The notes under the pieces are model-generated. The model saw nothing but the letters and a program-made list of their open reading frames with translations, was not told the origin of the DNA and searched no databases. Shown here piece after piece: positions 19,422 to 55,445 of a stretch of DNA of 64,000 bases. The position numbers and the translations under genes are program-made. Source of the stretch: Verrucomicrobiota bacterium (GTDB taxonomy: Bacteria; Verrucomicrobiota; Verrucomicrobiia; JADLBR01); contig JAKQKQ010000189.1 of NCBI GenBank assembly GCA_029560585.1, forward strand, positions 62,001 to 126,000, read 5' to 3'. The first letter of the stretch is position 1, and each line of letters starts with the position of its first letter.

Positions 19422-19507
<86 letters not shown>

Positions 19508-22050: not shown

Positions 22051-22109
22051 ATCAGTATCTTTATTTGGTGGAGGCCGGGGTCGGATAACGTACGCTGTTT
22101 TTCGCACAT

Positions 22110-31099: not shown

Positions 31100-32080
31100 T
31101 TAGCTTTGCGCAGGGTTAACCATTGATTCCAAACGGATTCTGATGATTTTTTTCAGTTCGGTGCGTATTGCCCTCTCCAGTGTCGGCCCGTTACCACCGC
31201 CGACTGCAACACGGAGGCGCGCCAGAACTTCTGCAGTGGTCTTCATGTTGTTCCGCACTCTATAGAGATCAAAGCTGTGCCAGTTGCGTTGCGCCCCACG
31301 AACAGCGAGTTTCCTGAATTCCACCACCCGCTCGGGATGGCCAGCGCATGCATGACACAGCATCTTCCAGATCACCTCGACATACCGCCCGATCGAATGA
31401 GGACGCAGATCGCCCAGATCGGCGCATTCGAGCAGCGTTTTCCCAGCGTACGCCGGCAATTCCCCCCGAACGTGTTCGAGGATTTCTTTCGCCGTTCCAT
31501 CCCCGTCATCGAGCAGAGGTTTCAGAAGCTCGGCCCATGGTTGCATGAATCCGATTTGACCGATCAACTGAACCACAACGCGAGTCGCATCCTCTTTCTG
31601 GCTCCACCGCCGCGTCCGTGCGCTGTCCTTGCCCGGCGGCTTCATCGTGTTGATTTCGGCGGTTTTCCCGACCTCCAACCGCTGGATCAACGCCGCGAAC
31701 TGCTCCCGCTCCTCGGGATGGTCAGAATAGAGGATTGGCCAACAACTTTGACCGTGAGCGATGTCGCGGAAGATCTCGGGCCTCTTGGAGGCGGCCTCTT
31801 TCAAGAGAACCACACCCCGCTCCACGCGCAACACCAACGCAAGCGCCGCCTCCGCGTTTCCCTGCAAGGCCATGCCATATAATCGCTCCAGCCCATCCTC
31901 CACTCCCGATGCGACCAGACGGACGGCGGCGTCATCGTGCGCCTGCGGTTCAGACAATTTTTTTGCTGCTAGGTAGTCGCGAAGAGACCGATATTCGCGA
32001 CCGAGTTTCTCGAATGGCGCTCGATCCCAAATCGGCAAGTCCCTGAGGTGGACCAAAGTCCGTTCCGATCTCTCTTTCAT
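31100..32080 (-). CDS. Hypothetical protein coupled to the integrase (326 aa)
   Basis: Starts within the integrase stop (ATGA overlap), so it is co-translated with it. The sequence is helical and charged: AALALVLRVERGVVLLKEAA, SQKEDATRVVVQLIGQIGFM and LLKPLLDDGDGTAKEILEHV, with a Trp/Cys-containing segment (VIWKMLCHACAGHPERVVEF). No family is recognised. Position suggests a role in integration, excision or host sensing. Confidence 0.72.
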   Translation of the reverse strand: MKERSERTLVHLRDLPIWDRAPFEKLGREYRSLRDYLAAKKLSEPQAHDDAAVRLVASGVEDGLERLYGMALQGNAEAALALVLRVERGVVLLKEAASKRPEIFRDIAHGQSCWPILYSDHPEEREQFAALIQRLEVGKTAEINTMKPPGKDSARTRRWSQKEDATRVVVQLIGQIGFMQPWAELLKPLLDDGDGTAKEILEHVRGELPAYAGKTLLECADLGDLRPHSIGRYVEVIWKMLCHACAGHPERVVEFRKLAVRGAQRNWHSFDLYRVRNNMKTTAEVLARLRVAVGGGNGPTLERAIRTELKKIIRIRLESMVNPAQS

Positions 32081-33456
32081 TTTGCCCTTCTCCGCTTGCC
32101 GAGGAATCGCCGTGGGGGGATGCCCTCCCCGCTAGCTGGAATTTCAACTCCGATAGTGACAGCCCCCTTGTGCAACAGCGGGCCAAGACCGACCGTCACC
32201 CTCCGCTTACCGTCGAGGTAATGCGCCGCCGTAATCCCGATGTCCGCGTGGCGCAGGGCGCGACTGGCGGCATAGATTCCTCTCTGATCGCAAATGAGCG
32301 AGCCAAACTCTTTCCTGAGTGCGTGAATCGGGGATTTCGCTTTGATCCCTTTATGCCGCAGCCAAAGTGTGAGCCCCTCGAAATGCCGCTGGCATCTGTA
32401 ATGGTGGGAGCCGCCCTCTGGGCGCGGCACCGATTCCGATTCCACCAAGAATCGCCCCTTGGCCACTGACCGAAGGCCCTGAAGTAACTGCATCACCTCC
32501 AGATCGACCTCCACATCCCCGGCAGCCTCCTCCGTCTTCGGATGGAAAAACTCGGTAGCCTGGATGCGGATCAGCCCCCGATCCTGATCCACGGCAGCCC
32601 ACTCCAGCTTGTCGATCTCGTTCCGGCGCAGCCCGGCGAACAGGGACAGCACGAAGATCTTGAACTGCTCCGGCGACGACTCGCGCAATTCCGCCTGGGC
32701 GTCCCGAATCAGTGCCTCGGCATCGATCTCGCTCCTGTACCTCATAGATCCCCGAGGTTCGAATTGCACACCGTCGAATGGATTGGGCTTCGGCAGATCC
32801 AACGTTACGAATCGGAGGTGCCTCGGGCTGAACAGGCTCTTGGCATTCCTCAAAAAGGTGTTTGCAGACCGCCGTGCCGCCCGTTGCTTCACGGGGTTGG
32901 CGCCGGCGGCCTTGATGAAATCCAGTTTCCACTTCTGGACCTTTTCGGGCGTGATCTCGGCCATCGGGACAGCATGGATCTGTTCCACCCACGCCTTGTT
33001 GCCCCCCGCGCGGTAGTCGAACTTCGCCCTGCCACCATCGATGCCCTCGATCTCCGCGACGATCTTCCGCAGCGACCGGGCATATTCAGCAAGAGTATGG
33101 GTCCGAATTCCCGCTTTGGCCCCGATCTCGCCCAAGAGATCCCCCACGGTCGGCCCACCCTCCCGTTTCTGGGTGACCGCACCTGCCTTGAACTTGGCCA
33201 AGGTCTCGTCCCAACCAGCGGCCTCGATGCTCAGATAGATCTCCCGCGCCCTCGCCGCGGCGGCGGCCCGGTTGGGTGTCTTGAGCGGGAACAATTCACG
33301 CCGGCCCCCGTGCTGGATCTTCACGGCCCAGTCTGGCGTCCGCCGCTCCTTGCCCTTCCATCGGTACCCGAGCCGGTACACCTTCTCCGCCCAATACCGC
33401 TGATCCGTCCTTGAAAAGGGCCTCGGACTCTTGGACACTTCTTGGACACTTTTCAT
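32077..33456 (-). CDS. int: Tyrosine integrase of island 1
   Basis: 459 residues from ATG 33456 (ribosome site AGGGGTGA); an in-frame GTG at 33501 is a weaker alternative. A SAM-like core-binding domain (about 90-200) precedes the catalytic domain with Arg I (LFAGLRRNEIDKLEW, about 272), beta-hairpin Lys (FFHPKTEEA), HALRKEF (H-x-x-R, about 376), LRHADIGITAAHYLD (His about 400, Tyr nucleophile about 411). All active-site residues are present. It lies 127 bp from the middle att copy and is transcribed inward, the standard arrangement for tRNA-targeting islands. Confidence 0.93.
   Translation of the reverse strand: MKSVQEVSKSPRPFSRTDQRYWAEKVYRLGYRWKGKERRTPDWAVKIQHGGRRELFPLKTPNRAAAAARAREIYLSIEAAGWDETLAKFKAGAVTQKREGGPTVGDLLGEIGAKAGIRTHTLAEYARSLRKIVAEIEGIDGGRAKFDYRAGGNKAWVEQIHAVPMAEITPEKVQKWKLDFIKAAGANPVKQRAARRSANTFLRNAKSLFSPRHLRFVTLDLPKPNPFDGVQFEPRGSMRYRSEIDAEALIRDAQAELRESSPEQFKIFVLSLFAGLRRNEIDKLEWAAVDQDRGLIRIQATEFFHPKTEEAAGDVEVDLEVMQLLQGLRSVAKGRFLVESESVPRPEGGSHHYRCQRHFEGLTLWLRHKGIKAKSPIHALRKEFGSLICDQRGIYAASRALRHADIGITAAHYLDGKRRVTVGLGPLLHKGAVTIGVEIPASGEGIPPRRFLGKRRRAK
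33430..33451. repeat. Tandem CTTGGACACTT repeat at the integrase start
   Basis: Same 11-bp tandem pair as at 19545-19566. It covers the first integrase codons (reads SVQEVSK on the minus strand), so integrase binding here could also autoregulate the gene. Confidence 0.55.
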
Positions 33457-33582
33457 GCTCACCCCTGCCCTAATCTGATCTCCAATGACCCGATGCCTCA
33501 CGTCGCAAATATCGCTTTAACAGGCTGATAATGCAAGCAGTTCGGATCAGAAAAGGTCACGTCGGGTCAAGGTAAGATACAA

Positions 33583-33639
33583 ATTCGTAATCAGTAGGTC
33601 GTGGGTTCGATCCCCATCTCCGGCTCTCTGATAATCAAC
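33583..33639 (+). other. 57-bp att direct repeat, copy 2 (island 1 / island 2 junction)
   Basis: Identical over 57 bp to 19451-19507. Only the 3' part of the tRNA is present, so it is not a functional tRNA gene. Confidence 0.95.
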
Positions 33640-34324: not shown

Positions 34325-35077
34325 TCAGCCCGCAAATGCGCGGAGCAGGCTTTTGACATCGAACGGGCGAAGGCCCGGGTAGGCGCCCACCAGTAGCGCG
34401 CAGACGCCGCTTATGGCCGGCGTGGCAAAGCTCGTCCCCGTGACGCTGGTCCGTCCGCCGCCCGGCGCAGCCGCCATTACCCGGTCGCCGTGGCCCGAGA
34501 ACTCGATGATTCGGTCGTCCCGGAAAAGGAGATGAAACTGCGATTGCAGCTTCGTGTTGTCGACGCCGATGACGGTAGCCACCTCGGCCGGAAAGCCCTC
34601 GTCCGTCAGGGGCATGTTGCGGCGGGACGCCACCACGACCTGGTTCTGGCGATAGGCGGTTTGGCAGAGCGCCTGAAGGGGCTCGGCAAACCTGGCGCTC
34701 GCTGCCAGGCTCATGTTGATGATACGCGCCTTCGACTCGACTGCGACCCGGAACCCTTCCATGAGCGTCTCGCCAGTGCAGACGTTCTTCTCGTCCAGGA
34801 CGCGCACGTCCAGGATGCGCGCGTTCGGCGCAATCCGGGCGATGATGCTGGCCACGGCGGTGCCATGGCCATAGACATCCGCGTTGCGGCGCCCTTTCCC
34901 CTCGACCACCCGGTGCCCCTTGCGCGTCGGCTCCACGCAGACCGCGCGCACGACCCGCCCCTTCAACTGGGGATGCGTGGCGTCCACGCCGCTGTCGACG
35001 ACGGCCACGGTGACGGGCTTCAGCTTCCGCAGCCGCAGCCGTTCCGGTCGGGTCTCGAGTGCGCTGCGCAATTCCAT
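34325..35077 (-). CDS. Subtilisin-like (S8) serine protease without signal peptide
   Basis: 250 residues. The catalytic triad is visible as VAVVDSGVDATH (Asp), YGHGTAVASII (His) and GTSFATPAISG (Ser); the oxyanion Asn is probably in VVASRRNMP, where the usual G-N is altered to R-N. The absence of a signal or prodomain suggests a cytoplasmic enzyme, like the S8 proteases that trim leader peptides in RiPP pathways such as cyanobactins. It is the last gene of the RiPP-like operon, 9 bp after the GAF gene, which supports that role; the cleavage site is unknown. Confidence 0.85.
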   Translation of the reverse strand: MELRSALETRPERLRLRKLKPVTVAVVDSGVDATHPQLKGRVVRAVCVEPTRKGHRVVEGKGRRNADVYGHGTAVASIIARIAPNARILDVRVLDEKNVCTGETLMEGFRVAVESKARIINMSLAASARFAEPLQALCQTAYRQNQVVVASRRNMPLTDEGFPAEVATVIGVDNTKLQSQFHLLFRDDRIIEFSGHGDRVMAAAPGGGRTSVTGTSFATPAISGVCALLVGAYPGLRPFDVKSLLRAFAG

Positions 35078-35086
35078 GGTTGAGGC

Positions 35087-35740
35087 CTATTCGGCGGCGA
35101 GCGCCGCGATGTCCGCAAGGAGCCGGGCGATCCGGGCCTTGGCGTGCGGCTTGTTTCGCGTCAGTTCCAGTACCGAGTTCGCGATTTCAAATTCCGTGCG
35201 TCCGTCGGCTCCGGCCCTCCTTTGGGAACGCCCGCCACGCCGGGGGGCCTGCAGATCCGAGAGCCGCCGCGCCTGGTCCACCACTACGCCCGCCACGGCC
35301 GCGATGCGACCGTAAAGCACGGCATCCTCGCCCGTGAACTCCTTGCCTGAACGGAAGCTCACCGCCGTCAGCACCCCGACCAGGCGGTCCTCGATCAGCA
35401 TCGGGGCCGCCAGGACGGCCTCGGGACCTTTGTTCGGCCGGGCCTGGCGGGTCTTGAAGACCGGCGCGCCGATCTGAACCTCCCGCGTCTGCGCAGCGAG
35501 ACCGGTGATGCCCTTCCCTACCGGGACGGCCTGCCCGAGCAACGCTTTCTCGGAGGACTTGCTACCGGTCGTCATGGCGAAGACGAGCGCCTTCTTCGCT
35601 TCGTCATAAACCAGAAGCGACCCTTCCTCGGCGCCGACGAATTGCGCACCCAATTCGATGAGCAGGCGCAGGACTTCCGGTTCCCGGCCACGGGACGATA
35701 TTCCGAGGTGAATTTCCAATACCGAGTTTGCTTTGGTCAT
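35087..35740 (-). CDS. GAF-domain protein
   Basis: 217 residues from ATG 35740. A GAF sensor domain covers about residues 20-170: LLIELGAQFVGAEEGSLLVY, VPVGKGITGLAAQTREVQIG, VLAAPMLIEDRLVGVLTAVS and EDAVLYGRIAAVAGVVVDQA. The C-terminal tail is basic, then helical (ARIARLLADIAALAAE). No output domain is attached, so it may bind a small ligand such as a cyclic nucleotide; a class III cyclase is encoded in the same operon, which makes a cNMP link attractive but unproven. Confidence 0.8.
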   Translation of the reverse strand: MTKANSVLEIHLGISSRGREPEVLRLLIELGAQFVGAEEGSLLVYDEAKKALVFAMTTGSKSSEKALLGQAVPVGKGITGLAAQTREVQIGAPVFKTRQARPNKGPEAVLAAPMLIEDRLVGVLTAVSFRSGKEFTGEDAVLYGRIAAVAGVVVDQARRLSDLQAPRRGGRSQRRAGADGRTEFEIANSVLELTRNKPHAKARIARLLADIAALAAE

Positions 35741-35810
35741 CGCTGCTTTCTTTTTCCGGGGCCTGTTCCGCCTCTTATGCCCAATGCGGGTGATGGGAGC
35801 CAAGCGCAAA

Positions 35811-37139
35811 TCAATGGAATGGACATCCACCTGATCTCTCGTCCTCGAGCGGAACAAAATTGACGTACAGGGTGACTCGACCCAGGCCGCGGTCAGGGCA
35901 AAGCCGGTAGGAAAGCGTGTGCGGGATGAGCGTGATCCGCCTTCCGCTTTCCACGGTGAGGGTATCGGGCAGCGAACGGAGCGAAGCCTGGGGCAGACCC
36001 AGTCCTTCGCTGACGATGGCGCCGACCTCGTCCATCGTCAGCCTGCCGGGGAATCCATCACGGAGATTGAGGTGGACCTTGATGCCGCCTTGCGCGGACC
36101 CGTCCGGGGCGTGGTAAATGCTGACGATGCCCACGTTCCGGCTCGGGTCAACGCCGTGGCACAGAAGCCTTTCCAAGGCTTGGAGCACGGGTTGGCCGGC
36201 CTCCTCGAAATGCTCCAGGGCCATGGCCTCCTGAAGGCCGCGCCGATCGAATCCGTCGAACATCGCGTAGACCTTGAGTAAGGGCGGCTGGTCGTTGAAG
36301 TTGCATCCGAGCAGCTCGGTCTGCGCCACCGTGCCAAACCGGTCGCGCCAGCGCTTCAGCCGTTCGCTCGGGAGATTCAGGGCGACCAGGACCTGAATGG
36401 CACGCTCCCAGCGCAGCTCGCGGTCTGCGGCCCAGCCCAGGTTCCAATAAGCCGAGACAGTTTCGCCCTCGGGAGAATAGTCGATGGCCGGGTGCAGGTA
36501 CTTGACGTAGGGGCTGATGAAGCGGGACGGGTCCGCCAGCATCAACCCGCAGATCCGCTCGAAAAGCTCGCGCCCATGGCGCAGGCCTCGACGGAAAGCA
36601 TCCCGCGCCAGGCGGACATTTTCCCACGGCGTGAGCAGCGGATCGCGGCAATCCAGCGCGATCCTCACGCTGCCGGTCGTGCCGCCAACCATGTCGAGGC
36701 ACAGCGCTGGCCGGCTGGGCAGATATTCCCTCGGCATGCAGAGAGGTTGGCGAAGAACGGTTCCGGACCAGGCGGCGATGCCGTCGCGCACGCGCGGCCA
36801 AAGCGCGTCGGCATCCAACCGATGGCAGACCACCTGGAAGACCTGCAGGAAGAAATCCCCGGCGCTTTCGCCCGTCCCTAACGAATCCACGAGATCAGAT
36901 GGAACCAGGGCGCGTGCCGCGATCAACTTTCTCATCCACTCCAACATGGGGATGAGGTCGTCAGACTCGACCCAGGGCGAATACCGGAAACTGCCATCGC
37001 GGAGGGCCTCGTATTGCGCCGGCGAGAGCGGCACCGCCGCGCCATCCGGGCCGATCAGCGACGGTTCGGGCGCCCTCTTGATTTTCCAACGGGGGGAAAG
37101 AAGCCAGCCGTTCATTTCATTCAGATGGGGAGCTTTCAT
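35811..37139 (-). CDS. Unrecognised 442-aa protein of the RiPP-like operon (speculatively an ABBA-type prenyltransferase)
   Basis: Start at ATG 37139, 4 nt after the previous stop; ATG 37151 is an alternative. No family can be named with confidence. The length (about 440), the segment IALDCRDPLLTPWENVRLAR and alternating beta strands with basic/aromatic pairs (LLKVYAMFDGFDRRG; GGIKVHLNLRDGF; GRVTLYVNFVPLE) are reminiscent of aromatic prenyltransferases, which line a barrel with Arg/Lys/Tyr. It ends SGGCPFH. Position between a SPASM enzyme and the GAF gene suggests a tailoring or scaffold role for the peptide product. Confidence 0.7.
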   Translation of the reverse strand: MKAPHLNEMNGWLLSPRWKIKRAPEPSLIGPDGAAVPLSPAQYEALRDGSFRYSPWVESDDLIPMLEWMRKLIAARALVPSDLVDSLGTGESAGDFFLQVFQVVCHRLDADALWPRVRDGIAAWSGTVLRQPLCMPREYLPSRPALCLDMVGGTTGSVRIALDCRDPLLTPWENVRLARDAFRRGLRHGRELFERICGLMLADPSRFISPYVKYLHPAIDYSPEGETVSAYWNLGWAADRELRWERAIQVLVALNLPSERLKRWRDRFGTVAQTELLGCNFNDQPPLLKVYAMFDGFDRRGLQEAMALEHFEEAGQPVLQALERLLCHGVDPSRNVGIVSIYHAPDGSAQGGIKVHLNLRDGFPGRLTMDEVGAIVSEGLGLPQASLRSLPDTLTVESGRRITLIPHTLSYRLCPDRGLGRVTLYVNFVPLEDERSGGCPFH

Positions 37140-37143
37140 GCCA

Positions 37144-38220
37144 TCATCCATGAGTGCGGGTGAGGCTCGGTGCTCGTTCCGCAACCAGGTATTTCCAGAA
37201 CATCCGGTTGGCCGCGCACTCGTGCTCAAACTTGCAGAAATCCATTTGATGGTAGGCTGCGCATCCATGATCGCAGATGGCATTGGCCGGGCACGAGGAG
37301 CAATGGGACCACCGCTGCTTGTTCCGCCAGAATTCCTGTCGCGCGCGCGGAAGCCGGTCCAGGGACGCGGCCCGGCCCAGCCCCCCGCGCATGCTTTTCT
37401 CCACGCATAGGTTGAAGGATCCGTCCGGGTCCAGACAGGCCAGGTGAAGTCCTGCGCCGCACTTCAGTTGTTCGCAATGCTCCTTCACGACCGTCCGTCC
37501 GCGGAAGGCCTGGTCGAATTCCTTCACCTGCCGGTCGACGTTGCGCTCGTGGACCGCACCCTCCTGGTGCCGTTGCATATGCTCGTAGATGGCTTTCTTA
37601 ACGTTGAACAAGGTGTCGGGAGAAAGCCGCTCCAAACGACGGACGCGCGTCGCCTCCCCAATTGGGTTCACTCGGATCTTGAGGAAGCCCTGGCGTCGGA
37701 ACCATTCCAGCGCGTCCTCGATTTCGTTGGCGAGCTCCGGGGTCAGGCAACTGACGATGGCGAACCGGACGGCGCGCGCCTGCAACCGCTTCAGCACCGC
37801 AAGGGTGGCCGCGCCATTTCCCCGACGGACGTCATGGACGTGGGGCGGGCCGTCAAGACTGAAGCCGGGCTCGATCCGCCATCTTTGGAGGAGATTGATG
37901 AAATCGTCATCGACCAGCACGCCGTTCGACTGAATCCCGATGGTGAGGTCGATGCTTCGGCGGCCGGCCTCGGTCGTCGCAACCCGGCAGACACGCTCCA
38001 GGTTTTCCAGCCCCCAAAGGATGGGCTCGCCCCCGGTCATGACCAGGGTGGCCCGGTTTCCTTCCAGGTCGGACAGCCATTGACGGACCGCGCGTTCCGC
38101 GATTTCGGGCGCGAGCGCGGCTTTCCGGCCGGGGCCCGCGGCGGCGCTGCAATAGCGGCAGGCCAGGTTGCACCGATCGGTGGTGGAAACGAACAGCGTG
38201 GCGATCCGGTGTTTGATCAT
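37144..38220 (-). CDS. Radical SAM/SPASM peptide-modifying enzyme
   Basis: 358 residues. The N-terminal C-x3-C-x2-C cluster lies in STTDRCNLACRYCSAAAG; MTGGEPILWG and IGIQSNGVLVDDDFI are standard TIM-barrel motifs. The C-terminal SPASM domain has its Cys set in CGAGLHLACLDPDGSFNLC and CSSCPANAICDHGCAAYHQM. SPASM enzymes install C-S, C-C or C-O cross-links in ribosomal peptides. Genes on both sides are 22 bp (ABC exporter) and 4 bp (unknown 442-aa protein) away in the same direction, so it belongs to the operon. Confidence 0.92.
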   Translation of the reverse strand: MIKHRIATLFVSTTDRCNLACRYCSAAAGPGRKAALAPEIAERAVRQWLSDLEGNRATLVMTGGEPILWGLENLERVCRVATTEAGRRSIDLTIGIQSNGVLVDDDFINLLQRWRIEPGFSLDGPPHVHDVRRGNGAATLAVLKRLQARAVRFAIVSCLTPELANEIEDALEWFRRQGFLKIRVNPIGEATRVRRLERLSPDTLFNVKKAIYEHMQRHQEGAVHERNVDRQVKEFDQAFRGRTVVKEHCEQLKCGAGLHLACLDPDGSFNLCVEKSMRGGLGRAASLDRLPRARQEFWRNKQRWSHCSSCPANAICDHGCAAYHQMDFCKFEHECAANRMFWKYLVAERAPSLTRTHG

Positions 38221-38242
38221 GGGGCCGCAACCCTGTCACCGG

Positions 38243-40114
38243 TTAGTGGCCCGGTTTACCGAACTGTTCCCGGTAGAAGGTGCAGGATCCCATGAGCTGC
38301 TCATGCGTTCCCACGGCCTCGATCACGGTGTCCACGTGGCCGTCTGCGCCCGAAGACACTCCCAGCACGATGACCCGGTCCATGGCCTTGAGAATCTCGG
38401 CCTGGTGCGTGCTGATGATCAGGGTGGTTCCCAGATTCTCCTGCGTGAGGGCATCGATGATGGCCTGCACCTCCATGGGTGGAACCCCGGTGAGGGGTTC
38501 GTCCAGGAGCAGAAGTTCCGGGCGTTTGACGATCGCGCGGCTCAGGATCAGGCGCCTACGCTGGCCGCCGGAGATATTCGATCCCATGTGCTCGAGCACC
38601 GTCTGCAGGCCCTGGGGCATGCGGAGGATCTCCCGGTCGAGGCGGGCCTTAGCCAGCGCCTGCAATGTCTCCTCCTCGCCGACGGCCTGGCCCGCGGGTG
38701 CTCCATACGCGACGTTGCGCGCCACCGTGTCGGCGAAGATGTAGTTGTCCTGCAACATCAGGCCCATGCGTCCGCGCAATTCACCCAGCGGAATCGAGCG
38801 CAGTTCCTTTCCCTTCAGGTAAATCCCGCCCCGGTACTCGCTGAATATCCGGAACAGGAGCAGCAGCAAGGTGGTCTTGCCGGCGCCGCTCGGCCCGACC
38901 AGCGCCACCCGCTCTCCCTCAAGAATCTCAAGCCGCGAGAAACGGAATCGTCGCCTGGCGCCGGGGAACTCGAACTCCATGTCCCGGATCGCGAGGAAGG
39001 CCGCCGGGGACGACGACGGTTCCGCATGATCGTCCCCGGTGGATGCGCGCTCGGTCTCCGACGGGTGATGGAAAATCTCCTCCAGGTTGTTGACGCTGAC
39101 CTCCAGCTCCTTGAGCGCCATGGGGATGGCGGATAGCCGGTCCACCGGGCCGTAGAGCATGCTGGTCGCAGCGACGAAGGCCATGAGCGTTTCCAAGGGT
39201 GTGATTCCCTTCATGACCAGATATCCGCCGATCACCATCACCGCCACCGGCCCGATGGCGCTGAGGAGCTCGGTCATGCATTTGTCGAAGAGCAGCACAT
39301 AGGCGTGCCACCGTTTTCTCCGGGCGGCATTCTCGGTGATGTCGGCGAAGCGCCCGGTCTCAAAGGCTTCGCGGGCGTTGGCGCGGATGTCGAGGAAACG
39401 CTCGAAGGACTCCTGGGCGAAGCCCGAGACCTCCTCGCGGCTGCGGTCGACGGCGTGGATGCGCTGGGCGGCGACACGGGCGGAAAACCAGGCGAGGACG
39501 ACGTAGAGGACCAGCACCAGGAGCGAGACGAGGGTCAGGCGCGGTTCCAGGGCGGCCAGATAAATGATCACGCCGCTGAAGATGACGAGGTCGGCGACCC
39601 GGAACAGGCAAACGTCCAGCACCAGCCGCCGGATCTGGGCGGAATCGTGATGAATGCGCTTGACCAGCGCCGCCACCCGGAACTCCTTGAATGCCGGGTA
39701 GGGCAGCGTCACCACCTTCGCGTAAACCCGGTCCTGAAACATCTTGGTGAGCTTAATGGAGACCAGTTCGAAGATGATGTCGCGAGCGTACATGAGGACG
39801 TAGGTGATGGCCGGGAGCGCCAGGGCCACGATCGCGCAGGTGACGAACAGGGGGTCGCCGCCGAGACGGAACCGTGCGCCCAGCCAGGCCGCAAATCCGG
39901 AGGCCTCAGCCCCGGCCAGACGGATTTGGAGCGTCTGGATCAAGGCCCGGGCGGCCTCGATGGAGGCGATCTGCGAGAAGGTCGTGACGAAAAGAAGCAC
40001 CAGGGAAATAACGAGGTAGCCGCGGATCTGCTTCAGGTCCGGGAGGATGTGCTTGCGGGTGAAATGGGTCAGTGTCATCTGGTCCTGGACCCGAGTTTCC
40101 ATCGAACTGCGCAA
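38243..40114 (-). CDS. ABC-type exporter, fused membrane and ATPase domains
   Basis: 623 residues. A six-helix ABC transporter membrane region (about 25-330; YLVISLVLLFVTTFSQIASI is helix 1) is followed by the ATPase with Walker A VGPSGAGKTTLL (about 405), Q-loop MLQDNYIF, signature ISGGQRRRLILSRA (about 513), Walker B LLLLDEPLTG and H-loop STHQAE. There is no N-terminal C39 peptidase domain, so leader removal must be done elsewhere, presumably by the S8 protease of the operon. Probably exports the mature peptide and may give self-protection. ATGs at residues 5 and 13 are alternative starts. Confidence 0.92.
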   Translation of the reverse strand: MRSSMETRVQDQMTLTHFTRKHILPDLKQIRGYLVISLVLLFVTTFSQIASIEAARALIQTLQIRLAGAEASGFAAWLGARFRLGGDPLFVTCAIVALALPAITYVLMYARDIIFELVSIKLTKMFQDRVYAKVVTLPYPAFKEFRVAALVKRIHHDSAQIRRLVLDVCLFRVADLVIFSGVIIYLAALEPRLTLVSLLVLVLYVVLAWFSARVAAQRIHAVDRSREEVSGFAQESFERFLDIRANAREAFETGRFADITENAARRKRWHAYVLLFDKCMTELLSAIGPVAVMVIGGYLVMKGITPLETLMAFVAATSMLYGPVDRLSAIPMALKELEVSVNNLEEIFHHPSETERASTGDDHAEPSSSPAAFLAIRDMEFEFPGARRRFRFSRLEILEGERVALVGPSGAGKTTLLLLLFRIFSEYRGGIYLKGKELRSIPLGELRGRMGLMLQDNYIFADTVARNVAYGAPAGQAVGEEETLQALAKARLDREILRMPQGLQTVLEHMGSNISGGQRRRLILSRAIVKRPELLLLDEPLTGVPPMEVQAIIDALTQENLGTTLIISTHQAEILKAMDRVIVLGVSSGADGHVDTVIEAVGTHEQLMGSCTFYREQFGKPGH

Positions 40115-40150
40115 GGGAGCACGACAAATCTCTCGGCGATTCCGTTACCG

Positions 40151-41245
40151 CTAACCCTGAAACGGCCTCAGCACCATCTCGTCGTACAGATGACGGACGC
40201 GCTTGTGAACTCCCGGACATTCATCGCGACGGGCGCAGCCAGCGCAGACCGGCCACCTGCAAAATTGGAGGAGCCGTTGGTAGCCCGTGAAGGCCATGAC
40301 GTGGTCGCGATCCTGCCCCGGCTGGATGAAAACGCGGGGGGCATGGTCGGTGAGCCGCTGTCGATCTTTGCTCCGGGGCCATCGCTGGCCGAGCAGGCAC
40401 AGGGGCATCCCTTCCGCCCGGTAGTCGATCCCCAACCGGTCCCACACGTCGAACAACGAGGGCAGGCGCGATTCCAACTCCCGGGGGTCTGGTACCAGGG
40501 CTGCCATCTCCGGAGTGTAAGGCTCGACCAGCGACAGGATCACCTGCGGTCGAACGGGCAAAGCCTCGAGCCAGGAGGCCCCGGCCAGACTTTCCAGAGT
40601 GGCCGAGGTCAGGACGTGGTTGACCCCGAAGTATTCGATCGTTCCCAGCTCCTTCTGGCGGGAAAAGTTGAGGAGGACCTTCCGCCAGGCCGGGTCCGGT
40701 GTCCTCCGGCCCGTGATCCGCTCGATGGATTTTTCGTCAAAGGCTTTCACGCTCACCAAAAAACCGGAGGCTCCGGCGCGGACGATCTTCTCCAGTCGCC
40801 GCTCGTCCTTCGCCCAGATGCCGTTGGTGAGAACCGTGGTCTTGATATCCAGGGCGGCGAGGTCAGCAAGGATGCGCGGGGATTCCTTGAATATGCCCGG
40901 CTCGCCGCCGCTGAGGACGGCGCGGCGCAGGCCGGCCAGGGCGAGTGCTTTCACCAGGACCCGGACCTGGGGCCAGTTGACAGGGCGCTTGTTGGTCCCC
41001 GCCAGGTTGCAGTAGACGCAGTGGTAGTTGCACGAATAGGAGGCGTCGATGATCAGGGCGGCCCGAGTGAGATCCAGATCCAGGATTTCGTTCCACGAAC
41101 TCTTGACGTAATCGCGCCCGCGGATGGGGGCGCGGGAGTCCCTTCGCTCCCGGGATTCGTCGGTGGGATCGAGGCTCGGATCCGACCGGATCTTCCAGAA
41201 GGCGAGCGGCCGCGGACCCGGGCGTCGATGTGTCTTCTGAACCAT
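40151..41245 (-). CDS. Radical SAM enzyme with C-terminal auxiliary Cys cluster
   Basis: 364 residues. The cluster motif C-x3-C-x2-C is in ASYSCNYHCVYCNLAGTNK, followed by VLSGGEPGIFKESPRILADL and TTVLTNGIWAKDE. The C-terminus has CRWPVCAGCARRDECPGVHK, suggesting one auxiliary iron-sulphur cluster (twitch/SPASM-like). It is distinct from the SPASM enzyme encoded at 37144-38220, so the operon has three non-identical radical SAM enzymes. It lies 12 bp after the B12-binding enzyme gene. The substrate is presumably the 74-aa precursor. Confidence 0.9.
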   Translation of the reverse strand: MVQKTHRRPGPRPLAFWKIRSDPSLDPTDESRERRDSRAPIRGRDYVKSSWNEILDLDLTRAALIIDASYSCNYHCVYCNLAGTNKRPVNWPQVRVLVKALALAGLRRAVLSGGEPGIFKESPRILADLAALDIKTTVLTNGIWAKDERRLEKIVRAGASGFLVSVKAFDEKSIERITGRRTPDPAWRKVLLNFSRQKELGTIEYFGVNHVLTSATLESLAGASWLEALPVRPQVILSLVEPYTPEMAALVPDPRELESRLPSLFDVWDRLGIDYRAEGMPLCLLGQRWPRSKDRQRLTDHAPRVFIQPGQDRDHVMAFTGYQRLLQFCRWPVCAGCARRDECPGVHKRVRHLYDEMVLRPFQG

Positions 41246-41257
41246 CGTGTTTTCGTT

Positions 41258-42847
41258 CTAAAGGAAGCAACGCTCATGCGCGTCGATGCGGTCAACCATC
41301 TTCCGTGGCGAGGTCCCGATTTCGAGGAACCTCTCAAGAGTTTCCCTGTCGGCCTGCGCCAGCAAGAACTTGCACATGGAGGCTTGTGTTGCTGAGAACA
41401 AGTCTTCCCTCGCCATCGTTGCGCCTCCCTCGAGGGCCAGGCCCAGACTCTCCAGTTGCCAGAACGCATAGGCGCGCCGCCGTCCCAAACTGGCCTCCGG
41501 CGGCGCCAGGCGCATGGCGGGAAAGAGAACCGCGCCTTGGATCAGGCGCCACCGGTCATAGATCTCCTGCACGGCGGGATCGGCGGCCTTCCACTCGCGT
41601 CGCCACGTGTTGCCGGCGTATCCAGAGGCGATGGGCGTCCCGGATAAGATATCGAGTTCGTTGAGGCCCAGAAAATAGCAGCGCAGGTTCTTTTCCATGA
41701 GCCGTTTCAGAAATTCGAGATCCGTGCGAATGCTCTCCCGGGTCATCCAGGGATGGAAGATGATGGTTCCGGCGGTGACGGTGATGCCCAGCCTGTCGAG
41801 GATGGCCGTGGCCTCCTCGCCCTGCCGGCGGGTGGCGCCCTTGTTGAGCTTCGCGAGGATCGCGTCGTCGCCCGACTCCAACCCCAGCAGGACGTGGTGA
41901 AGGCCCACCTCCTGCAGTTCGCCGAAGGCTTGGGGATAGGCGCAGACTGTGTCGGCCCGGACCATCACGCTGAAGGGGACATGGATCTCTTTCCGGCGCA
42001 TGAGATCGGCGATGGCGGCGGCGCGCTCGTCCGGCGCGGGTCCGCCCAGGAAGTTGTCGTCCACCACGATGATCCGGGTGGCTCGGTGGTTGCGGACCAG
42101 CTCTTCCACCCGGGCTACGAACCACTCCGGTGAATGGCCGCGCCAACGGCCGGACGCGCCCCACAGCGGTCCCACCGCGCAAAAGGAGCAGCGGCCGCTG
42201 CAGCCCCGGCTCGCCACCAAGCTCCAGTCCGCCGGGCCGATGTCCTCGTCGATCCAGTCGAAGTCGATATTTCCCAGCCCGTCAAGGTCCGTCGCCAGGG
42301 AACGGGGTTGATCCCCGCAGATCTGGCCATTCTCTTCCCGCCACCGCAGGCCGGGGATCGAATGCCTGATGTGGCCCTCGCCCAGGGCTATCAACAGGGC
42401 CCGGAGGGCGCCTTCCCCCTCGCCTTCGATCACGTAGTGGATGCGATCGTGAGCCTCGAGAAGCTCCCGCGCCTGATGGGTTGCGTAGTGACCCCCGACC
42501 ACCACCGGGACCTTCCGTCCCAGCTGGCGCTCCAGGATCTGAATGATGCCGAGCGCCTCTTCCAACATGCTGGGAGAATGAAGGCAGAAGCCCAGGAGGC
42601 GCGGCGCGCCCCGGGCGAGGATCCGGGCGACGGTCTCCTGACGGGGCAGACCGTTGAAATAGGCGTCGACCAGATCGCATTCCCACCCGGCCTGACGGGC
42701 GGCGTTTTTGAGATAGAGCAGGGCGAGGGTGTAGAGCCGGTTGAGATTACCCGGGCGCTTGGGCGTGTTGGGCGCACAAAGGACCAGTCGCGGAACCGTC
42801 CCATCCCGGGCACTTGAACAGGCTGTCCGGATCAGTTTTCTCCCCAT
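41258..42847 (-). CDS. Cobalamin-binding radical SAM enzyme
   Basis: 529 residues from ATG 42847; the frame is open up to 43003 only because of a duplicated segment. An N-terminal B12-binding Rossmann region (VPRLVLCAPNTPKRPGNLNR to about residue 200; VPVVVGGHYATHQ, IEGEGEGALRALL) precedes the radical SAM core with C-x3-C-x2-C in VASRGCSGRCSFCAVGPLWG. LGLESGDDAILAKLNKGA is a typical later motif. Members of this group methylate unactivated carbons or carry out ring-forming chemistry on peptides. The 5' end overlaps a remnant of a second precursor copy. Confidence 0.92.
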   Translation of the reverse strand: MGRKLIRTACSSARDGTVPRLVLCAPNTPKRPGNLNRLYTLALLYLKNAARQAGWECDLVDAYFNGLPRQETVARILARGAPRLLGFCLHSPSMLEEALGIIQILERQLGRKVPVVVGGHYATHQARELLEAHDRIHYVIEGEGEGALRALLIALGEGHIRHSIPGLRWREENGQICGDQPRSLATDLDGLGNIDFDWIDEDIGPADWSLVASRGCSGRCSFCAVGPLWGASGRWRGHSPEWFVARVEELVRNHRATRIIVVDDNFLGGPAPDERAAAIADLMRRKEIHVPFSVMVRADTVCAYPQAFGELQEVGLHHVLLGLESGDDAILAKLNKGATRRQGEEATAILDRLGITVTAGTIIFHPWMTRESIRTDLEFLKRLMEKNLRCYFLGLNELDILSGTPIASGYAGNTWRREWKAADPAVQEIYDRWRLIQGAVLFPAMRLAPPEASLGRRRAYAFWQLESLGLALEGGATMAREDLFSATQASMCKFLLAQADRETLERFLEIGTSPRKMVDRIDAHERCFL

Positions 42848-42981
42848 CCGTACTCTGCGCTTGATGAGATTCGCAAGCGCTTGGGCGTGTTGGGCGCTCA
42901 AAGGACCAGTCGCGGAACCGCCCCATCCCGGAGACTCGAGCAGGCTGTCCGGATCACTTATTCTCCCATCCGTAGCTGCGC
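42755..42981. repeat. Tandem imperfect duplication between the precursor gene and the B12-rSAM gene
   Basis: Segment 42755-42862 and segment 42877-42981 are near-identical (GCGCTTGGGCGTGTTGGGCG, GGACCAGTCGCGGAACCG, CAGGCTGTCCGGATCA in both). A further 19-bp block, TCTGCGCTTGATGAGATTC, occurs at about 42854 and again at about 43201, upstream of the intact precursor. The unit is therefore about 347 bp and originally contained a whole precursor gene. Confidence 0.85.
42832..42862 (-). pseudogene. C-terminal remnant of a second precursor peptide gene
   Basis: On the minus strand it reads (A)EYGWGEN-stop, aligned with the intact precursor end RSYGWENK-stop within the duplicated block. The rest was lost, apparently by deletion between two AGCGCAG microhomologies (5' UTR and C-terminal codons). 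It overlaps the start of the B12-rSAM gene. Confidence 0.65.
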
Positions 42982-43178
42982 TGGCCGCTAACCTCGATAT
43001 CAATGAGTTTCTCCGCCTCTGTCATCCCCTTCTGGTGGACCTTCTTCAAGATCTTGATGTCCGCTTCCGACAGGCCCTTGACGTGCTTGAGCACAACATC
43101 AAAGTCCTTGCGAAACGCCTTGGCGTTGTCGCCTTTCATGATCCAATCCAACGCTTGTTCCAAACTCTTACTGGGCAT
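42954..43178 (-). CDS. Putative RiPP precursor peptide (74 aa)
   Basis: Strong ribosome site AAAAGGAGCC 7 nt before ATG. The leader-like N-terminal 60 residues are helical and charged (MPSKSLEQALDWIMKG, then AFRKDFDVVLKHVKGLSEAD, then LKKVHQKGMTEAEKL), similar in style to Nif11 or Franean1_4349-type leaders (long helical leader with a GLS motif), though not an assigned member. The C-terminus SGQRSYGWENK is short, aromatic and Gly-containing, as for a core. It is encoded immediately before three radical SAM enzymes, an exporter and a protease. A W-E-N triplet fits the aromatic-x-Asn pattern of radical SAM cyclophane peptides. Confidence 0.72.
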   Translation of the reverse strand: MPSKSLEQALDWIMKGDNAKAFRKDFDVVLKHVKGLSEADIKILKKVHQKGMTEAEKLIDIEVSGQRSYGWENK

Positions 43179-43386
43179 AATTCAGGCTCCTTTTCTCGAT
43201 ATTCTGCGCTTGATGAGATTCTCTAAAAGGAATCACTTTTCCGATGGCACGAACCCGTGCCGGTCGAGCCGTCACCAGGCGCATACTGCCGACAAAGAGG
43301 CTGCTGGGACCAGGCAAGGGAGGCAAGCGTAAAGAGAATGCGCCACGCCCATGTCGTTCGGACCCCTCGCCGGTTCGTTTCAGGAC

Positions 43387-44451
43387 TCAGGCAGCCTCTT
43401 GCTCGGATACTCCCCGACGACGGGCCTGGAGGGCGGACGTCTTCGCCTGATCGGTATGTCCCAAGGCCTTGTGAACGCGCGCGAGTTCGAGCCATGCGTC
43501 GGCGAACATGGGCCAGTGCCTCGTCAAATCCTCATAGTACAGAAGAGCGATTTCCTTCTGGTCCCGCTCGGCCATGGCCTGACCGGCATGGTAGAGGGCG
43601 GCGGGATTCTTGGGGTCGATGTTGAGGACGTGCTCGCAGAGGCGGAGTGCCTCATCGGTGATCCGGTCGTTCGCTTGGGCGGCCTGATAAACCTGCCAGC
43701 AGGCGTGGACCCAGAGATCGAAAGTATTGCGGGCCAGGGCCTGGTGCGCCATGCGCTCGAAGCCTTGCAGCAACTCAGGTTCGAGGCGCTTTCCCATGTT
43801 CATAAAGCACTCGGCCACCTCGTGAACACCGATGGGAACCACGACGCCTTTCATCGGGACGATCCGCCGGGGTTCGAAGAGCAGGTTGCGAATGCGGCGA
43901 TTGATCTGCTTGAAGGCCGGGTCCGACACGAAGACCTGGTAGCGCTCCCCCTCGCGCGAAGCGGATTCGACGCGCTTGCCCACGTTGAGGGCGAAACCGC
44001 ACAACGCGAATCGACCGCCGGTGCGGCGGGCCCAGACCTGTCCGAAATTGATCCCCGCCGCCAGCCCAGTGCTGGAAAGGGCGGAATTGAGACGGGCCGT
44101 ATTCATGGGCGAACCAAGCCATCCGCACTTGAGGGCCACCGCCAGGCAGATCAGGAGATAGACGTCGTTGGGCGGGTTGTCGGTGTGGAGAAACACCACC
44201 ATTTCGTCGCCGACGATCTGGACGCTGTAATCGAGATGCTCCGTCTTGGAAAAGGTCTCGAAGAAGAAGCGGGTCTGCCGCAGGCACAGGTCATGAAACG
44301 CCTGCACGTATTCGGCGTATTCCCGGAGCCCCATCACGCTCGCGAAATCGCTGGAGCTGATCAGGTCCATGAACAGCACCGAGACCTGCAGAGGACCGGA
44401 CTCGCCCTCTTTCCACTCTGCGGGTGGCTTGCAGACGGGTTCGGGGGACAT
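43387..44451 (-). CDS. Class III adenylate/guanylate cyclase with TPR-like tail
   Basis: 354 residues, soluble. The cyclase homology domain covers about 18-215: VSVLFMDLISSSDFASV (first metal Asp), VQIVGDEMVVFLH (second Asp within the GDE motif), AAGINFGQVWARRTGGRFAL and ALNVGKRVESASREG. The C-terminal third is helical TPR-like (LCEHVLNIDPKNPAALYHAG, then LTRHWPMFADAWLELARVHK). It starts 3 bp after the lipoprotein gene and lies upstream of the precursor. It may set a cyclic-nucleotide signal sensed by the GAF protein of the same operon; no experimental basis in the sequence. Confidence 0.88.
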   Translation of the reverse strand: MSPEPVCKPPAEWKEGESGPLQVSVLFMDLISSSDFASVMGLREYAEYVQAFHDLCLRQTRFFFETFSKTEHLDYSVQIVGDEMVVFLHTDNPPNDVYLLICLAVALKCGWLGSPMNTARLNSALSSTGLAAGINFGQVWARRTGGRFALCGFALNVGKRVESASREGERYQVFVSDPAFKQINRRIRNLLFEPRRIVPMKGVVVPIGVHEVAECFMNMGKRLEPELLQGFERMAHQALARNTFDLWVHACWQVYQAAQANDRITDEALRLCEHVLNIDPKNPAALYHAGQAMAERDQKEIALLYYEDLTRHWPMFADAWLELARVHKALGHTDQAKTSALQARRRGVSEQEAA

Positions 44452-44454
44452 GTG

Positions 44455-44760
44455 CTACTTGTTAAGCTCCAGAGGATCTGGAACGGCACTCTGGGACTCG
44501 GGACGCCGTTCCGCCCGACGAGGGGCGGCCTCCCGCATGCTGGATGCATCATCCATCTGCCGCCTGGACTCCATCTCAAACCCCTCGGGCTGGCGAATCT
44601 GATTGGTGGGCGCCAGAGCCGGGGCGGAAGCGGTTGGCGGATTGGCGGCACCCGGCGCGGGTTTCTCACCACCGCAGCCGGTCACTAGAACCAGCGCGCA
44701 GCAAGCAATGATCCTGGGAATGGCAACTGATCTCCATCCCTCGGAGAAGAAACATCTCAT
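44455..44760 (-). CDS. Small lipoprotein
   Basis: 101 residues. The signal peptide has the lipobox LVTGC (IIACCALVLVTGCGG) and is followed by an Ala/Pro-rich spacer (APGAANPPTASAPALAP) and a charged tail (ESRRQMDDASSMREAAPRRA). No family is recognised. First gene of the leftward RiPP-like operon, only 3 bp before the cyclase. Confidence 0.75.
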   Translation of the reverse strand: MRCFFSEGWRSVAIPRIIACCALVLVTGCGGEKPAPGAANPPTASAPALAPTNQIRQPEGFEMESRRQMDDASSMREAAPRRAERRPESQSAVPDPLELNK

Positions 44761-47930: not shown

Positions 47931-49757
47931 CTACCAGCGGGCAGCCCTCGCAGCAGGTGCAATGCAATCCACGCCTGTTACCAGGCTGACAAGTCGGCCG
48001 CCAATGACAGCCACCAGTTGACGGGCCACTAAAGTGCGAAGCGTCTCAAGGCGAATGGCGCCTGCCAGTTGCGCCCATGTCTTGCGCCGCACAGGCCGGA
48101 TCAGCTCCACCAGCAGGCTGGTTTCGGATTCTGAAAGGGAGTGAACGACTTTCTTCGCGACCGACCGGGTGTCCATGACGATGGCACTCCCATCGGGAAG
48201 ATTCACAAGGGAGAGAATCGGTGCTTGGTCCGAGGACCAGGACCCGCGCCAACGGTTCACTGCCTCCGTGAGCTCAGATCGCAGCCCGTTCTCAGTGGAC
48301 GGAAGATCGAAATCGGCCTCATAGTGAGTCGCCAGTCGCCCGATGTCTGCGTGCGCTGGGAAGATATGCGAATAAGAACTTGAGGCTCGAAGGTGACACT
48401 CGGGGGTTCTCTTGGATAACCCAAAAAGAGGGCTGAATCGCTCAACGGTTACCCGTCCGATACCCATCGGAGGCCACAAATGATGAATCAGAGGGAAGAT
48501 CCGTATCATCTGCTCATAATCCTCGGCTTTCTCCCCCGGTATGCCGTAGAGCAGCCCCCAGCCCGCTCGAAGACCAACCGTCACACAGTCCCGCAGGAAC
48601 CGAACGTTGTCTGCTGCGGTGGTGCCCTTGTTGAGCAGAAGCAACAGAGCGTCCGAGAGGCTTTCGATGCCCGGGCCGACAGAGTAACAGCCCCCCTTGC
48701 GCAACTGGGACAACTCCTCGAACGAAAGAGTCGCTCGGACACAACAGTCGAGTTTGACCGTGTTGCCGGCTTGGGCCAGGTGTTTGAAGAGCGGCCCCGT
48801 CTGCTTGGAAAGGCTGGTCGCCGTAGCCATCACACTCCTCATGGGATATCGCTCCTGCAACCATACCAGTTCGCGCCCAACCCGTTCCGGGGACTTGGCG
48901 CGGAACGTCGTGTCCGGACCATTCAATCCGCAGAAGAGACACGGCTGGTTCTCACCCCACCAGCATCCCCGCGAAAACTCCATCGGTAATTGGGTCTGGC
49001 TGCAGTCGAGCCCAAGGGAGGCGGCTTGTTCATAGTAATCATCGTGGTTTGGATATGGAATCGAGTCCAAGTGTTGGACAAGATTCGCGACCATGACGCC
49101 CCGAGCCTTCCTGCGGCCATGCAGCACGTCATCGCAGAACTGCGGAAACTCAAGGTCGCCCTCCCCTGAGAAAACAAAGTCGACATCCGGCGTAATTTCA
49201 AGCAGAGCTGCTCCCATGGGCAGAACACATGCCGATCCGCCAAGAACCGTGACGATGGAGGGGCACGCCGCCTTGAGAGAGCGGCAGAGTGCCAGCGACG
49301 ACAAGACCTGCTCGAAGGTTATGCTGAACCCCACAATGGACGGACGTAAACGTACGGCCTGGGCAACCACATCTTCCAAGAATGAAGGAACCATTCTCTC
49401 CACCGCCTTGTACTCGGCGAATGAAATCTGAGTCGTCCGGTTGGCCGTCTTCAGCGATCCAGCGGCTTCCAGCAACGCCCCATACTCCTCCGCACCAGTG
49501 GGATGTTCGAACGCGTGGCGCGAGAAAAGCCGCTCGCCAGCAAGCAACTTGGGCGGCAGGAAGCAAAGGGTTTCATAGATCGGCCAGCCGAGCCTGGATC
49601 CAAAAACGAGATTGGCGTAAAAAACGTGGGTTCTAATGCCCCGTTGGCTGCAGGCCGCCCGGAGCGTGCTGGCGGCGATGCACGGAATCTTGGTCGATGC
49701 GAACGGAGGAACGACCAAAAGGACGTCGACCGGTCCACTCTCGCGAGGCTCTTTCAC
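47931..49757 (-). CDS. RiPP maturation radical SAM enzyme (rSAM_ocin_1-like, B12-binding N-terminus)
   Basis: 608 residues from a GTG at 49757. The N-terminal B12-binding-like domain (VDVLLVVPPFASTKIPCIAA, then VGFSITFEQVLSS, VLGGSACVLP) precedes the hallmark SRGCWWGENQPCLFCGLNGP with FRAKSPERVGREL, which is characteristic of the family named RiPP maturation radical SAM protein 1. Note the longer C-x7-C-x2-C spacing in this motif compared with the other three radical SAM enzymes of the island. The start overlaps the stop of a 38-codon ORF as GTGA. It lies 3 kb from the main RiPP-like operon on the same strand, so it may serve that pathway or its own small peptide. Confidence 0.88.
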   Translation of the reverse strand: MKEPRESGPVDVLLVVPPFASTKIPCIAASTLRAACSQRGIRTHVFYANLVFGSRLGWPIYETLCFLPPKLLAGERLFSRHAFEHPTGAEEYGALLEAAGSLKTANRTTQISFAEYKAVERMVPSFLEDVVAQAVRLRPSIVGFSITFEQVLSSLALCRSLKAACPSIVTVLGGSACVLPMGAALLEITPDVDFVFSGEGDLEFPQFCDDVLHGRRKARGVMVANLVQHLDSIPYPNHDDYYEQAASLGLDCSQTQLPMEFSRGCWWGENQPCLFCGLNGPDTTFRAKSPERVGRELVWLQERYPMRSVMATATSLSKQTGPLFKHLAQAGNTVKLDCCVRATLSFEELSQLRKGGCYSVGPGIESLSDALLLLLNKGTTAADNVRFLRDCVTVGLRAGWGLLYGIPGEKAEDYEQMIRIFPLIHHLWPPMGIGRVTVERFSPLFGLSKRTPECHLRASSSYSHIFPAHADIGRLATHYEADFDLPSTENGLRSELTEAVNRWRGSWSSDQAPILSLVNLPDGSAIVMDTRSVAKKVVHSLSESETSLLVELIRPVRRKTWAQLAGAIRLETLRTLVARQLVAVIGGRLVSLVTGVDCIAPAARAARW

Positions 49758-49870
49758 GACCAGAGCTTGTCCTCAACCAGCTCGTCAGTTTCAGCAGGGT
49801 TTCGGCGAACGGGTTCGAATTTCGGCATCGCTCGGCAGACAAAAAGGCTTATCTTGAGATCTTCCGCCAT
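49754..49870 (-). CDS. 38-codon ORF translationally coupled to the rSAM_ocin_1-like gene
   Basis: Reads MAEDLKISLFVCRAMPKFEP ... ETDELVEDKLWS, then a TGA that overlaps the next GTG start. The ribosome site is weak (AAAGG immediately before the ATG). One Cys and a C-terminal Trp-Ser. It could be a precursor peptide, a leader for coupling or chance. Coupling and position are the only support. Confidence 0.4.
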   Translation of the reverse strand: MAEDLKISLFVCRAMPKFEPVRRNPAETDELVEDKLWS

Positions 49871-50544
49871 GCCTTTGTAAGGGGACAACATGTTGGAATA
49901 GCGCCCCATGCAAAATTAAATCGAAACGTGCGGTGTGCGGTGGGTTTCAGTCCAATCGTGCGGCGCCGGATGGGGTTTGCATAGCGGGTAAAGGGGTTCA
50001 GGTCAATGGTAAGCGCTTTCCGAGGGGGAACGGAACCGAGTATCGGAAGCAGAAACGGCGACCTGTTTCCCTCTGAGCCCTGTGCCTGGAATGCCCAGGA
50101 GTGCCCTCAATTATTTTGCCCAGGGAGGGGGGATCGGGGGGGATGAGAGCGAAGGATGGTGCTCTGCGTAGTCCGATGGACGGAGCAGAGTTTTTTTGCT
50201 TTTCAAATCAGGCTACGGATGGCAGGCCATCCTTTCTCGAACCGCGCGGGAGCGAAGGCGATGTTCTCATCTTTCTATTTCACCATGAAAAAGAAAGTGA
50301 TGGCTGTCTCCCTGGCACGTTAATACGGGGGTCGGACCAACCGATCGGAATTTGGTTCTGACGCCCTGCCGAACGGACCCGCCCTCCTCCCGCCCTCTTG
50401 GGGGTCTGAAGCCGTCCCATCATGGGGATATCGTAGCAGACGGGCCACCGGGGGTCGAGCGGTGCTCGCCATTGCGGTGCTCGCCATCGCCCAGCGCCAC
50501 ATGCTGTACGCCCCCCTTCCCCTTCAAGAACTTCATCGCCCCGC
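49871..50544. other. 674-bp region without an intact gene
   Basis: Contains the inverted counterpart (50340-50460) of the segment at 20872-21010. The rest has no credible ORF; short runs of T and A suggest a promoter for the leftward radical SAM gene but none is assigned. Confidence 0.5.
50340..50460. repeat. Segment shared (inverted) between the two islands, copy 2
   Basis: See 20872-21010; here in opposite orientation, with GTCTGAAGCCGTCCCAT and GGATATCGTAGCAGACGG as landmarks. Confidence 0.55.
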
Positions 50545-54541: not shown

Positions 54542-54589
54542 GCATAACGCCTAGCGGTCCGGCACCCGAGGTCGAGCGGGTTCGGGTGT

Positions 54590-54728
54590 CCCCCGCCCCG
54601 AATTTCACCTTCGTCACCATCTCCCTCTCGTGCTCGGCACGCACGTGCGAGTATGTCTTCAGCAGCAGGGCGCCGTGGTCCTTGTGACCCAGCCACTCGG
54701 CCACGGTGTGGATGTCAATCTCGACCTC
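54590..54728 (-). pseudogene. Tyrosine integrase C-terminal remnant of a different subfamily (tail 3)
   Basis: IDIHTVAEWLGHKDHGALLL followed by KTYSHVRAEHERE shows the LGHKD motif (catalytic His) and the Tyr nucleophile (KTYSH). It is not similar to the RARNVI-type tails. The frame is open only because upstream sequence reads through by chance. Confidence 0.8.
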
Positions 54729-55387: not shown

Positions 55388-55445
55388 GCCGGTGATACTA
55401 CCGCCCACCAAAGCGCTGGCGCAATCCCGGTTCCCGCTGACGACC

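Follow-up and report, generated by a model that had tools for sequence, protein, structure and literature searches.

A candidate RiPP operon with three radical SAM enzymes and a probable ABBA-fold prenyltransferase in a Verrucomicrobiota bacterium

Ribosomally synthesized and post-translationally modified peptide (RiPP) pathways, radical S-adenosylmethionine (SAM) enzymes, ABBA prenyltransferases, and processing by an S8 protease with an ATP-binding cassette (ABC) exporter are each known. Their combination is apparently undescribed in the open-access literature, in which we found no account of radical SAM cross-linking and peptide prenylation within one RiPP pathway. Here, we analyze a ten-gene operon in which they may be combined. 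The operon lies in a 64,000-nucleotide stretch (the window) of contig JAKQKQ010000189.1 (assembly GCA_029560585.1) from a Verrucomicrobiota bacterium, and all coordinates are positions in this window. With moderate confidence, we read it as an island-borne RiPP pathway, in which radical SAM enzymes and a prenyltransferase would modify the short C-terminal core of a 74-aa precursor, an S8 protease would cut the peptide, and an ABC exporter would export the product.

Several described systems resemble parts of this operon. ComX is a prenylated pheromone of Bacillus with tryptophan (Trp) at the fourth position from the C-terminus (PMC5331326). The present locus shares with ComQXPA a short core at the C-terminus, a Trp in position -4, and an ending of the type ...WEQ/WEN. 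Unlike the putative prenyltransferase described here, ComQ resembles trans-isoprenyl-diphosphate synthases and is not an ABBA enzyme; moreover, ComQXPA has no radical SAM enzymes, and ComP and ComA are absent here. None of the ten operon proteins matched a ComQ-type prenyl-synthase family in Pfam or NCBIfam. MppC geranylates Trp of a lanthipeptide in a leader-dependent manner (PMC12715784). In the cyanobactins (PatA/PatG and F-family prenyltransferases), an S8 protease and an ABBA prenyltransferase act on a ribosomal peptide, an arrangement the present operon may share; in contrast to the cyanobactins, it has no YcaO, macrocyclase protease, or recognition-sequence cassettes, and three radical SAM enzymes instead.

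Daropeptide cores follow an aromatic-x-aromatic-x pattern (PMC9055067). The Y-x-W-x motif of the precursor is similar to the W-x-W/F-x of daropeptides and triceptides (darobactin, WNWSKSF), and the SPASM-type radical SAM enzyme of the operon weakly resembles cyclophane maturases and DarE/DynA. However, its scores fall far below the family cut-offs, and a B12-binding and a third radical SAM enzyme, the probable prenyltransferase, and the S8 protease are additional here. In the maturation of quinohemoprotein amine dehydrogenase (QHNDH), cleavage by QhpE precedes export by QhpF, a precedent for a cytoplasmic S8 protease followed by ABC export (PMC7876137). The operon shares with QhpD/E/F a SPASM radical SAM enzyme, a cytoplasmic S8 leader protease, and an ABC exporter without a C39 domain, whereas the dehydrogenase subunits and QhpG are absent from it and its precursor contains no cysteine (Cys).

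The operon and its precursor peptide

The operon is real. All ten leftward open reading frames (ORFs) were confirmed at 34325–44760, where the original prediction, made from the sequence by eye, had placed them. Pfam and NCBIfam supported the families it had listed for the B12-binding radical SAM enzyme, the two other radical SAM enzymes, the ABC exporter, the GAF protein, and the S8 protease, with the cyclase marginal. The ten genes are collinear in a metagenome-assembled genome of the same genus, Verrucomicrobiia bacterium isolate SJ186 (contig JADLBR010000278.1), with 83–98% amino acid identity. Since all ten recur in the same order, the operon is not a chance arrangement. The dN/dS ratios between the two genomes were 0.12–0.29 for genes of known or suspected enzymes; only a small lipoprotein gene was near 1.

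The precursor gene (42954–43178, minus strand) is a conserved ORF with an AGGAG ribosome site upstream. It encodes 74 aa, ending in SGQRS-YGWENK, with Trp71 as the fourth residue from the end. SGQRSYGWE is identical in both species, and the last two residues differ (NK here, QN in SJ186). Neither precursor contains Cys; thioether chemistry of the sactipeptide or ranthipeptide type was therefore rejected. The two precursors differ at 9 of 74 residues and by 21 nucleotide changes, 13 of which fall at codon position 3. Eleven of the 21 changes are synonymous, compared with about four expected (P = 6e-4). With a dN of 0.058 and a dS of 0.32 (dN/dS about 0.18), the peptide is under purifying selection.

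A 122-bp tandem duplication lies between the peptide gene and the B12 enzyme gene (42755–42852 and 42877–42974, 89%). In the second copy (42832–42872, minus strand), which is absent from the relative, the precursor 5' flank (42851–42872) is fused at a shared CGCAG repeat to a core reading YGWGEN-stop (42832–42852). This decayed copy probably derives from a second precursor gene whose leader was lost by deletion. All three cores retain YGW, and in each the Trp is the fourth residue from the end: YGWENK, YGWEQN in SJ186, and YGWGEN in the decayed copy.

A conserved short precursor ORF thus stands beside modifying enzymes, as far as one relative can tell, and the conservation of the peptide, the intact motifs of the enzymes, and full synteny back the RiPP pathway that had been proposed for this locus. 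We looked for loss of conservation of the peptide and for enzyme homologues without it; the sole relative found keeps the peptide together with the 442-aa protein encoded farther along the operon. With only one relative, it follows that the peptide ORF is real, but not that the co-occurrence is general. Among 289 genomes of the phylum, only the window's own copy of the peptide was found, and the precursor matched no known leader family.

The 442-aa protein as a probable prenyltransferase

The gene at 35811–37139 (minus strand) encodes a protein of 442 aa, which had been called unrecognized. This description holds for sequence searches, which returned zero matches in Pfam, NCBIfam, PHROG, and PDB sequences. 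It no longer holds for predicted structure, which makes the protein a probable ABBA-fold prenyltransferase. The ABBA idea came from reading the sequence before any structure search, and was then tested. The AlphaFold2 input consisted of two sequences, and the full-length model was poor, with a predicted local distance difference test score (pLDDT) of 37. Nevertheless, in a Foldseek search of the PDB its first match was the indole prenyltransferase IptA (E 7e-3, probability 0.87), and 16 of the top 50 matches were ABBA enzymes. The C-terminal 354 aa modeled alone (pLDDT 51, predicted template modeling score 0.50) gave five beta-hairpins alternating with helices, a predicted ABBA barrel at 35814–36875. 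The best match of this model was again IptA (E 1.8e-3, probability 0.98); ranks 1–31 were all ABBA enzymes, as were 43 of the 50 matches in total, including DMATS1, PriB, FunA, CdpNPT, TleC, FgaPT2, NphB, and the peptide enzymes LimF and KgpF.

The predicted hairpin and helix order and the best fold matches liken the protein to the ABBA indole prenyltransferases (DMATS, IptA, PriB, and the peptide members KgpF and LimF), as do candidate acid, Arg, and Lys-x-Tyr positions in the putative lumen and the Trp acceptor available in the precursor. In a register set by hand against FgaPT2 (reference sequence identical to PDB 3I4X), D152, R162, K292/Y294, K357/H359, R415, and Y428 fall at E89, R100, K259/Y261, Q343/Y345, R404, and Y413. 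In this register, the candidate positions correspond to the catalytic acid, the diphosphate site, and the Tyr shield of FgaPT2, and none of them varies between the two species. Unlike the known family, the 442-aa protein has no detectable sequence similarity to these enzymes, carries an N-terminal extension of about 90 aa, and occurs in a radical SAM context, and its predicted fold is of low confidence. A likeness of the extension to a PqqD-like RiPP recognition element was a mere impression, with no Pfam match. Overall, we consider an ABBA prenyltransferase fold probable, and prenylation of the 74-aa peptide by this protein somewhat less so.

Several points weigh against the prenyltransferase and against the pathway as a whole. 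The 354-aa model has TM-scores of only 0.3–0.4 and a root-mean-square deviation of about 9–12 Å from its matches, and its arrangement is inaccurate. An hhalign comparison with five fungal DMATS sequences scored 18.4, within the controls (12–22 for shuffled sequences and 20.9 for a reversed one). The Trp_DMAT profile PF11991 does not match the protein, nor did it match elsewhere in the organism's own genome. The position of K187 in the DMATS diphosphate site is occupied by Ser. No close characterized homologue settles the chemistry of the radical SAM enzymes, and the action of any of the enzymes on the peptide is presumed. Finally, only a single relative is known, and co-occurrence is not independent evidence. 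The 442-aa protein is 91% identical in SJ186, which was the only genome with a relative among 141 nearest-relative genomes (sequence search) and in a collection of genome contigs. Among 388 phylum-wide genomes, only the protein itself and noise at E of about 0.002–0.008 appeared, and plasmids and viral contigs gave nothing.

These points leave room for a RiPP pathway that relies on radical SAM enzymes only, with the 442-aa protein as a leader-binding or scaffold partner or another kind of enzyme. The missing sequence match to any prenyltransferase family and the low model confidence fit such a role. Nevertheless, ABBA enzymes were retrieved first by both models, which differ in length, the number and order of beta-hairpins are right, and the cationic and aromatic residues are conserved; we therefore consider this explanation unlikely. 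It is more doubtful still that the enzymes act on small molecules, such as free Trp or a lipid, and that the 74-aa ORF encodes an unrelated small regulatory protein. IptA and PriB, among the closest ABBA folds, prenylate free Trp, and the match of the peptide to no leader family would also be expected. Against this, the operon contains the peptide gene, whose tandem duplication preserved the core, and the YGW near the end of the peptide is invariant; an exporter, a cytoplasmic S8 protease, and three radical SAM enzymes form a usual complement of a RiPP pathway.

Modification, processing, and the proposed pathway

The B12-binding radical SAM enzyme (41258–42847, minus strand; PF02310 and PF04055) carries the motif RGCSGRCSFC and is distantly related to BchE, PhpK, ApyD, and HpnJ in NCBIfam. 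Its start at 43003 is wrong. In SJ186, a stop breaks the frame upstream, and conserved sequence begins near 42793, so the ATG at 42847 is the likelier start. The second radical SAM enzyme (40151–41245, minus strand; PF04055) has C-terminal auxiliary-cluster cysteines, C283, C334, C337, and C343, which are conserved in SJ186; its nearest PDB entry is PqqE. For the radical SAM/SPASM enzyme (37144–38220, minus strand), the best NCBIfam models were PapB, anaerobic sulfatase maturase (anSME), QhpD, and cyclophane maturases, all far below cut-off, and the nearest PDB entries were anSME and CteB. No daropeptide or triceptide maturase model reached its cut-off (AmcB, 75 of 425 bits; DynA, 74 of 450; DarE, 47 of 650).

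The S8 protease (34325–35077, minus strand; PF00082) has intact D/H/S motifs and no signal peptide, and is a relative of mycosins and QhpE (TIGR03921, 111 bits). In the exporter (38243–40114, minus strand), the membrane and ATPase domains are fused (PF00664, PF00005); only these two domains were matched, and no C39 peptidase was found. A QHNDH-like system that matures a redox cofactor or a small subunit of an enzyme, in which the peptide stays in a larger exported protein complex, would agree with the cut-and-export order of QhpE and QhpF, with the 102 bits of the S8 protease against QhpE (NF049966, cut-off 165), and with the 77 bits of the SPASM enzyme against QhpD (cut-off 453), but it is highly improbable given that all matches lie under curated cut-offs, the peptide lacks the Cys that thioethers or cysteine tryptophylquinone would require, and the operon has neither alpha and beta subunit genes nor a QhpG flavoprotein.

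Returning to the RiPP pathway with a prenyltransferase, the computations establish the operon, its conservation, the motifs, and the island boundaries, and they support the prenyltransferase fold short of proof. We infer that all the enzymes act on the peptide, and likewise in which order and by what chemistry they do so, which residue is the acceptor, and what role the product has. The 74-aa precursor would consist of a long leader followed by a core of very few residues at the C-terminus (about SYGWENK). At least one of the three radical SAM enzymes would modify the core at non-cysteine residues. For the SPASM enzyme, a cross-link across the Y-x-W-x motif is the likeliest chemistry and our leading guess, since Y-G-W-E resembles the aromatic-x-aromatic-x cores of daropeptides. 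The B12 enzyme, judging by its family, may perform C-methylation or another C-H functionalization. The 442-aa protein would prenylate the core, with Trp71 as the likeliest acceptor, and its N-terminal domain may bind the leader. The cytoplasmic S8 protease would then remove the leader, whereupon the ABC exporter would secrete the product. As to the role of the product, the closest parallel is a signal of the ComX kind.

Three genes of the operon remain. The first gene of the operon encodes a small lipoprotein (44455–44760, minus strand) with the lipobox LVTGC and no family match, 87% identical in the relative. It is followed by a putative, divergent class III nucleotidyl cyclase domain with C-terminal tetratricopeptide repeats, which were matched (43387–44451, minus strand; 97% amino acid identity). 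The isolated cyclase domain scored 21.4 bits against PF00211 (cut-off 21.9, E 2e-4) and has the motifs FMDLIS, VGDEM, and ALNVGKR. The GAF-domain protein (35087–35740, minus strand; PF13185, 3.6e-10) starts at the ATG at 35740 and has 217 aa, since in SJ186 the 5' extension does not stay in frame. A cyclic-nucleotide switch built from the cyclase and the GAF protein, as suggested originally, is speculative. It is possible that the product is a signal with the two proteins as its downstream parts.

The genomic island and the meaning of the operon

A 57-bp perfect repeat of the 3' half of tRNA-Thr(CGT) occurs three times on the plus strand, at 19451–19507, 33583–33639, and 56337–56393; SJ186 has one copy only. 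The first copy is the original attachment site in tRNA-Thr(CGT). The three copies delimit two tandem islands, at 19.5–33.6 kb and 33.6–56.4 kb, the second of which (22.8 kb) contains the operon and is flanked on either side by the tRNA 3' end as a direct repeat. Synonymous divergence from SJ186 was 0.05–0.34 in the operon and 0.05–0.11 in two upstream genes, compared with 0.50–0.80 in four chromosomal genes, which fits a recent transfer. The exact repeats and this low divergence bear out the claim that the operon is cargo of an integrated island.

SJ186 shares the operon, together with 1.1 kb or more of the DNA upstream of it, at 93–96% identity, while its downstream flank is wholly different. 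Since this flank differs and the operon contig of SJ186 carries no tRNA-Thr repeat, the two genomes do not have the same transfer unit. Because SJ186 lacks the downstream integrase block, we considered that the operon might be unlinked to an island; this was dropped, as the tRNA-Thr repeats place the block in the separate neighboring island. That first island encodes a putative tyrosine recombinase (32077–33501; Phage_integrase, E 1e-4, 22.4 bits, under the cut-off of 27.1), a DnaB helicase, and an HTH_36 protein.

Other genes lie in the two islands. A fourth radical SAM enzyme, a RiPP maturation radical SAM C-methyltransferase (47931–49757, minus strand; TIGR03975, 490 bits, cut-off 282), is encoded in the operon island, outside the operon and 3.2 kb upstream of it; a 51-aa ORF (49754–49909) overlaps the start of its gene. 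A transketolase pyrimidine-binding domain at 51552–52394 (minus strand), preceded by no more than the end of the N-terminal domain, is probably a pseudogene fragment. Beside the right boundary of this island, pieces at 54363–56237 (minus strand) resemble a broken tyrosine recombinase by eye, with no Pfam match, and are interrupted by a pRiA4b ORF-3-like gene (PF07929, 54728–55411). In the first island, a large FGE-sulfatase-like protein (PF03781) is encoded at 25398–27683 (minus strand), and DNA fragments about 70% identical to its gene occur at several SJ186 sites. The region 21000–23000 has a GC content of 0.47, compared with 0.62–0.65 around it, and contains a 337-aa ORF without a Pfam match.

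The gene set had been regarded as unusual, and the probable prenyltransferase makes it still more so. Tentatively, the operon may represent a new RiPP class: radical SAM enzymes would cross-link or C-modify a core of 6–7 residues, and a new ABBA family with its own leader-binding domain would prenylate this core on Trp. Such a class would be spread on tRNA islands and would possibly yield a secreted prenyl-peptide signal in Verrucomicrobia. Radical SAM cross-links and prenylation are each prized for stable, membrane-active peptides, and the operon is a small, self-contained system open to co-expression. If true, an ABBA prenyltransferase that is unrecognizable by sequence would mean that this fold is under-detected by profile methods.

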